Source: Thiobacillus sp. (lineage in GTDB: Bacteria; Pseudomonadota; Gammaproteobacteria; Burkholderiales; Thiobacillaceae). Taken from it: 64,000 nucleotides of DNA. The notes beneath the pieces were generated by a model, which did not search any database, had not been told where the DNA came from, and saw nothing but the letters and a program-made list of their open reading frames with translations. The stretch spans positions 1-64,000 of the forward strand of contig JANJWF010000092.1 in NCBI GenBank assembly GCA_024709685.1. Direction: 5' to 3'. The translations under genes were made by a program, and so were the position numbers. This document shows positions 6,536 to 31,698 of this stretch, in pieces (the stretch's first letter is position 1; every line of letters begins with the position of its first letter).

Positions 6536-6994
6536 TCAGTCCGTTTCCCGCATTTCGTCCAGGATTTCGAGCATGTCTTTCTCCCAGCGCTCGAAGAGCG
6601 GTTTCAGCTCGGGGTCAGGGAAAAACTCCTGCAGCATTTGCGGATGGCTTGCCACCAGAATGGTCTGATCCTCCTCCGCGAAGATCGTGATATTCAGCGG
6701 TAGAAACGGGATGAGCTCGGGGTTCCTGGCGGTCGCCTGCCTGACTTCCTCGTGCTTGCCGAAGTACACGACGCGGTACATATCGCTCTTGAACGCGCGG
6801 CGCTCCAGATTTTCGTTCACCTGCTGCAGGCGGGTGATCGTATAGCCCCGCGACGAAATGGAGGATTGCAGCAGGGTCATCGCCTCGGGGAACAGCCGGT
6901 TTACACGCGCCATCAGCAGGTCGGCGGCAACAGCGGGCGCGCACAACAGCAATGTGCAGGCGACGGTCACCGCCCACTTCAACGGATGTCTCAT
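6536..6994 (-). CDS. Exported DUF302 protein
   Basis: The 152-residue product has a signal peptide of about 23 residues (cleavage near AVA-ADLL) and a DUF302-type domain of alternating strands and helices, including VVYFGKHEEVRQATARNPELIPFLPLNITIF. DUF302 domains are small periplasmic modules of unsettled function, common in sulfur-oxidising bacteria. The start overlaps the stop of the upstream cytochrome-DUF302 gene by four bases, so the two are co-translated and likely work together. No cysteine pair or haem motif is present in the mature part. Confidence 0.86.
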   Translation of the reverse strand: MRHPLKWAVTVACTLLLCAPAVAADLLMARVNRLFPEAMTLLQSSISSRGYTITRLQQVNENLERRAFKSDMYRVVYFGKHEEVRQATARNPELIPFLPLNITIFAEEDQTILVASHPQMLQEFFPDPELKPLFERWEKDMLEILDEMRETD

Positions 6995-8040
6995 AGCGTG
7001 GCCTCCTCCATGATTGCGGTGTAGTTTTTGCTGAGTTCATCGCACATGCGAAGCAGTTCGGAGTTGTTGAACAGCCGACTCAGCACCGCGGGATTCACCG
7101 ACATCACCTGCACCTTGCCGTTCGTCTCCACAATGCTGATGCGGCAGGGCAGGAACATGCCGACCCGCGGATCGATGGCCAACGCCTGGTTGAGCAGGCT
7201 GATATTGCAGAAATAGACAATGACCTGTTTCTGATTTTCGTTGGCTGGCGAAGTCATGCCGTACTCCAGCGTCTGCACCCGCCCGTAGAAGAAGTTATTG
7301 TTGTTCACCGCCCGCTTGACGTTTTCCACCGTGGTATTGAGGTCATAAGGCGAATCCATGGCAATCACCGGACGATCCACCTTCGCCGTCGTCACCTCCT
7401 GCGAGAGCGGATGATTTTCGAATCCGCGCACATGGCTGACAATGTCGTCGATATCTTTTTCCTTGAGTCCCTGCTTGATGAAAGAGACCATCGGGGTGCC
7501 CTCACGACCACGCATCAGCGTCGCCTTGATCATGGCATCGGTCGATGCGGAAAGGAAACCCGGGTTATTCAGGGCAGGTGCCATGATGGGCAGGTCACGC
7601 GGGCGCGAAAACGTGACGCCAGTCCCCTTGCTGCCTTCGCCTTCCGCTCCATGGCATGCGGCGCAGTATTGTGCAAAAAGCTTCCTGCCGTGCGCCGGGT
7701 CGCCCGTGACGCGCTCCGCGGAATAGGTGGCGGAAATTCCCCTGTTCCAGGACCGCACATAGCGAACGATGGCGTCGACTTCGGCATCTTCCAGCGCAGG
7801 GAATGCCGGCATGACCCGGCCCGGGCGACCGAGATGTATGGTCTTGCGCAAGTAGTCGTCGCTGATTCCTGCCTGGAAGGAAGGCAACGCGAGCGGCACG
7901 CCGATTCCGCCGTTGCCATTCTCGCCGTGGCAGGCCGCACAATTGCGCCCGTATAACTGCGCGCCATCAGGCGCGGCCATGGCCGAGGAAATGCCGAGCC
8001 CTGCGAGCAGGGATGCTGCAAATAGTAGGCGCTTGAGCAT
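6991..8040 (-). CDS. Diheme cytochrome c fused to a C-terminal DUF302 domain
   Basis: The 349-residue exported protein has a signal peptide (residues 1-23, MAA-PDG), two class I cytochrome c domains with CAACH motifs at 34-38 and 126-130 and likely axial methionines (GRVMPAF, Met77; GTPMVSF, about Met184), then a DUF302 domain from about 224 to the end. It should be a periplasmic electron-transfer protein whose DUF302 part binds an unknown partner or ligand. ATG 8040 is preferred, with GGGGA just upstream; an ATG at 8070 would lengthen the signal. The promoter region carries three AT-rich octamers at 8080-8103. The DUF302 gene at 6536-6994 is in the same operon. Confidence 0.92.
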   Translation of the reverse strand: MLKRLLFAASLLAGLGISSAMAAPDGAQLYGRNCAACHGENGNGGIGVPLALPSFQAGISDDYLRKTIHLGRPGRVMPAFPALEDAEVDAIVRYVRSWNRGISATYSAERVTGDPAHGRKLFAQYCAACHGAEGEGSKGTGVTFSRPRDLPIMAPALNNPGFLSASTDAMIKATLMRGREGTPMVSFIKQGLKEKDIDDIVSHVRGFENHPLSQEVTTAKVDRPVIAMDSPYDLNTTVENVKRAVNNNNFFYGRVQTLEYGMTSPANENQKQVIVYFCNISLLNQALAIDPRVGMFLPCRISIVETNGKVQVMSVNPAVLSRLFNNSELLRMCDELSKNYTAIMEEATL

Positions 8041-31179: not shown

Positions 31180-31698
31180 TCACAGTTCGCCCTTGGCGCC
31201 GGCCTGCATGATCTCGACCAGCGACTTGCGCACGGTCTCGATACGCGTCTTGAGTACCGGCGGCAGGCGTTTTTCCTGCGCCACCGCCCCGACGTTGACG
31301 TCCATCATCACCAGCCAGCCCCGGCCGCTGGCATCCTCGATCAGGGCGATGCGGCACGGCATGTAGATGGCAAATTCCAGATTGACGTCGATCAGGTCCT
31401 TGGCGAGCACTGCATCGCAAAACTGGAAAATCGTGATGGTGCGCTGCGGCTTGCCGGTGACCGCTTCCACCTGCTTGGACATCGGAAGTTCCGCCACCAG
31501 TTGCAGGTTCAGCGCGTTGGCGCGCAGGCGCATCGATTCCGCCGCCTCGCTCAGGCTGACGCTGGGCTCGATGGCGATCTTGTAGACGTCGCTCTGCCCG
31601 GCCGGCTTGGCCTTGGGCGGAGCCGCCCAGGCGGCGGGAGCGGGCAGCAAGAAAGTACCCAAAACGACGCCGATGACCGCAAAGAAAACAGGGCGCAT
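31180..31698 (-). CDS. Exported DUF302 protein
   Basis: The 172-residue protein has a signal peptide (cleavage near AWA-APP, residue 25) and a DUF302-like domain containing FQFCDAVLAKDLIDVNL and EFAIYMPCRIALIED. Its PCRIALIE element matches PCRISIVE in the DUF302 part of the cytochrome at 6991-8040, showing they belong to one family. Two Cys lie in the domain. It is separated from hemY by about 80 bases and converges with the reductase at 30141. Function unknown. Confidence 0.84.
   Translation of the reverse strand: MRPVFFAVIGVVLGTFLLPAPAAWAAPPKAKPAGQSDVYKIAIEPSVSLSEAAESMRLRANALNLQLVAELPMSKQVEAVTGKPQRTITIFQFCDAVLAKDLIDVNLEFAIYMPCRIALIEDASGRGWLVMMDVNVGAVAQEKRLPPVLKTRIETVRKSLVEIMQAGAKGEL

Follow-up and report, generated by a model that had tools for sequence, protein, structure and literature searches.

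A conserved gene pair of a diheme cytochrome c-DUF302 fusion and a cysteine-poor DUF302 protein as a candidate for a step in extracytoplasmic sulfur oxidation

The question raised by this locus is what a c-type cytochrome does with a DUF302 domain at its end and a second DUF302 protein encoded directly behind it. The window, the whole stretch of 64,000 nucleotides from a Thiobacillus sp. contig that was analysed, carries this arrangement on its minus strand. An earlier note, made from the sequence alone, had described two haem domains fused to DUF302 and overlapped by an exported DUF302 gene. The coordinates are exact, and Pfam and fold agree with that description. The features are listed below.

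6991..8040, minus strand: diheme cytochrome c-DUF302 fusion gene, 349 aa (translation and Pfam)
7975..8040, minus strand: signal peptide of the fusion, Sec type, residues ~1-22, MLKRLLFAASLLAGLGISSAMA
7927..7941, minus strand: haem 1 motif CAACH, residues 34-38, invariant in 54 aligned rows
7810..7812, minus strand: Met77 in GRPGRVMP, likely distal ligand of haem 1, invariant
7651..7665, minus strand: haem 2 motif CAACH, residues 126-130, invariant in 54 aligned rows
7489..7491, minus strand: Met184 in GTPM, likely distal ligand of haem 2, invariant
6994..7368, minus strand: DUF302 domain of the fusion, residues ~225-349 (Pfam core 270-317 and AlphaFold model)
7207..7209, minus strand: Cys278 (YFC), first of the canonical DUF302 pair, invariant in fusions
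7144..7146, minus strand: Cys299 (LPC), second of the canonical DUF302 pair, invariant in fusions
7042..7044, minus strand: Cys333 of the C-terminal helix, invariant in fusions and special to them
6991..6994, minus strand: 4-bp ATGA overlap of the gene 1 stop and gene 2 start, recurring in relatives
6536..6994, minus strand: partner gene, an exported cysteine-poor DUF302 protein with signal peptide, 152 aa (Pfam and fold)

In Pfam, the fusion matches Cytochrome_CBB3 in two stretches (84 bits) and DUF302 (PF03625) at residues 270-317 with 43.2 bits, above the curated cut-off of 23. Relatives open with the same Met, L007 among them, and so support the start codon. The signal peptide was judged by eye, and relatives likewise have a hydrophobic N-terminus. 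The two CxxCH motifs and the invariant Met77 and Met184 point to a diheme class I c-type cytochrome, in which the two methionines are likely the distal haem ligands by likeness to class I cytochromes c. The AlphaFold model matches the DUF302 structures 1Q9U (E 1e-6, TM 0.82 on target), 7TJ1 and 1J3M over approximately 125-130 aligned columns. The full-length model has a pLDDT of 80.9 and a pTM of 0.59, and because of the latter its domain arrangement is unreliable.

The partner is a member of DUF302 by profile and fold only and represents a degenerate branch. Its Pfam score of 27.0 bits (residues 59-115) is barely above the cut-off of 23. The best PDB match of its model (mean pLDDT 84.7) is 1Q9U (TM 0.82 on target, E 5e-9), and 7TJ1 and 1J3M are matched as well. 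A chance DUF302 match in this gene is ruled out by fold and conservation. The canonical cysteine pair is absent, with LPL for LPC and YFG for YFC.

The fusion is not peculiar to the window. A scan of genome contigs returned 23 full-length fusions, besides weaker cytochromes that lack DUF302, in records of Thiobacillus, Sulfuricella, 'Thiogranum' and other beta- and gammaproteobacteria. In a profile search, the fusion is found in 61 of 369 genomes of the window's GTDB class, representing 44 genera, with a near-full model match in all; DUF302-cytochrome fusions elsewhere, which the earlier note had proposed to look for in other sulfur oxidisers, are present, and 56 of the 61 genomes contain soxB. 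Three loci of a second set of 30 encode proteins that the first set already contains (L087 is the window's own locus, L088 equals L024 and L091 equals L026), so the distinct fusion proteins number about 50 (about 51), all within this class. The DUF302 part is kept in every full-length relative; its absence would have counted against the earlier reading.

The partner lies directly downstream of the fusion in the first set of loci wherever the flank was read. It is also present in 30 of 30 further loci: an HMM detects it among mechanically called ORFs in 27, and a GTG-start frame encodes it in the other three. These GTG starts rule out that the partner is missing from the latter three. In the 30 loci, it overlaps the fusion by 4 bp or starts slightly upstream according to mechanical ORF calling. 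Since full-length fusions span many genera with the second gene following, the fusion is not a chance event. A sample of 249 genomes from the phylum, which covers few families and so cannot be set against the class sample, has the fusion only in the window's genome and in one other of its family. No full-length copy of the fusion occurs among the plasmid matches. DUF302 in general is common: of 158 genomes sampled from the class, 98 have at least one copy.

Eleven residues are identical throughout the 54 rows of the joint alignment: C34, C37, H38, M77, C126, C129, H130, M184, C278, C299 and C333. The C278/C299 pair, spaced as C..x~20..PC, has equivalents in the cysteines of 1Q9U and 1J3M and in four other DUF302 proteins of the same genome, the second being slightly shifted in the copy on contig C153. 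It is also present in 30 of 30 stand-alone DUF302 proteins from the class, a sample made up of the top-scoring type only, and the two residues look like a hallmark of the family. A cysteine in the C333 region is found in only two of these 30. No invariant His or Met stands beside the cysteines of the fusion DUF302 part in the 54-row alignment. In the DUF302 tree, all fusion domains form one clade (97/94) and all partners another (97/88), apart from the stand-alone type; the deep branches are long and the order among them is unsure. The fusion and partner look like an ancient pair in which one subunit has the cysteines and the other has none, and their two DUF302 domains may form a heterodimer.

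The fusion and its partner are a self-contained two-gene unit. The annotated flanks consist of housekeeping genes that vary by lineage, and no sox, dsr or sqr genes were found beside the pair in the annotated neighbourhoods. In the window, genes for a UPF0114 protein and a TPR protein flank the pair, along with an hslU-like gene identified by eye. The heterogeneous neighbours elsewhere (Usp, MarC, RsmI, amidohydrolase, DapB, Na/H exchanger, FKBP) rule out further operon partners. Because these flanks are changing housekeeping genes, the sulfur link of the pair is drawn from co-occurrence across genomes and not from gene clusters.

This co-occurrence is strong. Among the 369 class genomes, soxB is present in 56 of 61 genomes with the fusion and 94 of 308 others (OR 25, p 8e-20), and dsrA in 48 of 61 and 70 of 308 (OR 12.6, p 2e-16); these p values ignore kinship and overstate independence, and lithotrophy in general was not a covariate. 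The control gene narG is present in 15 of 61 and 48 of 308, respectively (OR 1.8, p 0.095), which is not significant and argues against denitrification as the true correlate. At the family level (183 families, read from labels), soxB occurs in 33 of 34 families with the fusion and 45 of 149 others. The tie to sulfur oxidation that the earlier note had drawn from the frequency of DUF302 in sulfur-oxidising bacteria is therefore borne out at the level of genomes, and its periplasmic redox unit remains the probable reading on sequence grounds. Four genomes have the fusion without soxB and dsrA. Two of these (G317 and G337) contain flavocytochrome c sulfide dehydrogenase and low-scoring soxB-like matches. 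In the other two (G212 and G313), which belong to one genus, soxB, dsrA and flavocytochrome c sulfide dehydrogenase were not detected. Matches to aprA are zero in the exceptional genomes and equally zero in controls. In the window's genome, contigs C134 and C144 contain two dsrA matches (~490 and 483 bits) that score below most dsrA of the class.

Matches above the soxC cut-off were compared among 80 soxB-containing genomes. Where dsrA is absent, soxC is found in none of nine genomes with the fusion vs 21 of 36 without it (p 0.0018). Where dsrA is present, there is no difference (two of 17 vs one of 18, p 0.60). From these counts, the fusion tends toward genomes with a truncated Sox system. 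No soxC was found in the window's genome, which is 79% complete, at E 1e-50.

The pair is kept together in all relatives examined and almost confined to sulfur oxidisers, which makes it a good candidate for an extracytoplasmic step of sulfur oxidation not described before. The reading that we favour, which we hold tentatively and place somewhat short of probable, is a periplasmic enzyme that would take reduced or sulfane sulfur as its substrate and transfer electrons from a dithiol to haem in sulfur oxidisers that lack SoxCD, with a non-catalytic partner. The two DUF302 domains would form a heterodimer. The Cys278/Cys299 site, assisted by Cys333, would bind and oxidise a reduced or sulfane sulfur species, for which sulfide, polysulfide, thiosulfate or polythionate, and carrier-bound sulfur such as that on SoxY are candidates. 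Two electrons would then pass singly through both His/Met haems into the pool of c-type cytochromes and on to a terminal oxidase or nitrite reductase. The partner would shape the site or dock a carrier. Joining a site that reacts with sulfur to a multihaem cytochrome makes sense as a design, given the examples of SoxCD and flavocytochrome c sulfide dehydrogenase.

Flavocytochrome c sulfide dehydrogenase (FccAB/SoxEF) would act alike, with a sulfur-reacting part wired to a periplasmic cytochrome c, but it has an FAD flavoprotein subunit. The two-gene unit has none, and its sulfur site would be the DUF302 cysteines. SoxCD sulfane dehydrogenase also combines a sulfur-reacting part with a diheme cytochrome, and the fusion is mostly found where soxC is missing. 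SoxC, however, binds molybdenum; the two-gene unit contains no such subunit, and the sequences are unrelated beyond the cytochrome fold. Thiosulfate dehydrogenase (TsdA) is likewise a periplasmic diheme cytochrome of sulfur oxidisers and a weak structural match to the fusion. Its catalysis takes place at a His/Cys haem, whereas the fusion has an invariant Met at both presumed distal positions and carries DUF302.

Stand-alone DUF302 genes have been reported inside the sox clusters of Thermithiobacillus, Acidithiobacillus and Thiohalorhabdus, with a guessed role in trithionate or polythionate oxidation (PMC5037610, PMC5248467; 2016-17), and also in those of Sulfitobacter (PMC11034169). They share the domain with the pair and occur in sulfur oxidisers lacking soxCD. 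They differ from the pair in being unfused to haems, without a cysteine-free partner and inside sox clusters; the pair sits elsewhere. For Thiobacillus thioparus DSM 505, six DUF302 genes were reported outside the sox cluster and none within it (PMC5037610, PMC5248467), and the strain carries the fusion-partner pair (L013). No description of a DUF302-haem domain fusion was found in the open-licence papers mentioning DUF302 that were read. The label 'undescribed' in the earlier note thus holds for the haem fusion in the literature searched and fails for stand-alone DUF302 in sox clusters, published in 2016-17.

According to papers on Thiobacillus and Thermithiobacillus, the fate of sulfane sulfur in organisms lacking soxCD is unknown, and an unidentified protein may act on it (PMC5248467). 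A more specific form of the favoured reading, which we regard as unlikely, is that the pair is the missing periplasmic sulfur dehydrogenase, free of flavin and molybdenum, in which the DUF302 cysteines would take the place of SoxCD in oxidising or releasing the sulfane sulfur of SoxY or polythionates. If this is true, DUF302 would gain its first function. The pair is conserved, compact, tied to organisms lacking soxCD and absent from curated annotation. A single gene pair makes both the fate of sulfane sulfur and the function of DUF302 testable.

The strict link to soxB and dsrA without a link to narG, and the three DUF302 cysteines that are as invariant as the haem ligands, are left unexplained if the fusion is a soluble shuttle that hands electrons from one respiratory complex to another, such as cbb3 oxidase, with the DUF302 pair used for docking or dimerisation only and no sulfur site. 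We consider this somewhat unlikely. It fits the haems, both of which look His/Met as in carriers. No NCBIfam family matches the fusion at its cut-off; CcoP and further carrier cytochromes come nearest among the named families, each with a score well under its threshold. CcoP also makes up most of the plasmid matches to the cytochrome half. A Bradyrhizobium DUF302 gene is listed beside ccoG in a tabulated comparison of proteins under microoxia (PMC6515984). CcoP (cbb3 oxidase subunit III) and other diheme cytochromes share the diheme class I fold and are the closest family by sequence, but the fusion reaches 66.9 bits against the TIGR00782 cut-off of 179.95, has no adjacent oxidase genes and carries an extra DUF302.

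Quite unlikely is a protective periplasmic thiol/disulfide or sulfane-stress system, in which the DUF302 cysteines would hold the thiol redox state or clear persulfide and the haems would be an electron outlet. The cysteine pair resembles a redox dithiol, and sulfane stress is met by sulfur oxidisers. A TlpA/ResA-like ORF, read from sequence, lies near the pair in L123, from the window's family, but this neighbour is not conserved at other loci. It would also be wasteful to feed high-potential haems from low-potential thiols. Equally improbable is a metal or haem handling module, in which Cys278, Cys299 and Cys333 would bind copper or another metal that the cytochrome part oxidises or reduces: three invariant cysteines are a possible metal site, DUF302 genes flank one Acidihalobacter metal-resistance cluster (PMC7760498) and a further DUF302 gene of the window adjoins haem-synthesis genes, but the DUF302 cysteines have no invariant His/Met next to them and the co-occurrence points to sulfur genes.

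Other DUF302 genes have varied neighbours. The further copy in the window (31180-31698, minus strand; 47 bits) is exported, lies directly downstream of hemY/hemX-like and haem-synthesis genes and is convergent with a ferredoxin-reductase-like gene. On contig C138 of the window's genome (L117, 7870-9557), a DUF302 gene is followed immediately by a flavoprotein like that of flavocytochrome c sulfide dehydrogenase; the reading frame of the latter is broken in the assembly, by error or as a pseudogene. In L118 (2387-3596), a Cu/Zn superoxide dismutase gene adjoins a DUF302 gene. In L119 (6637-8250), a DUF302 gene is just ahead of a CrcB-like ORF. The structure in PDB 7TJ1, an entry whose title names a CrcB fluoride transporter, shows the DUF302 fold, and in light of the gene order in L119 its title may stem from a neighbour gene. 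In genome G026 (contig C12, 18057-20059), a DUF302 gene is directly upstream of soxB, matching the published sox clusters.
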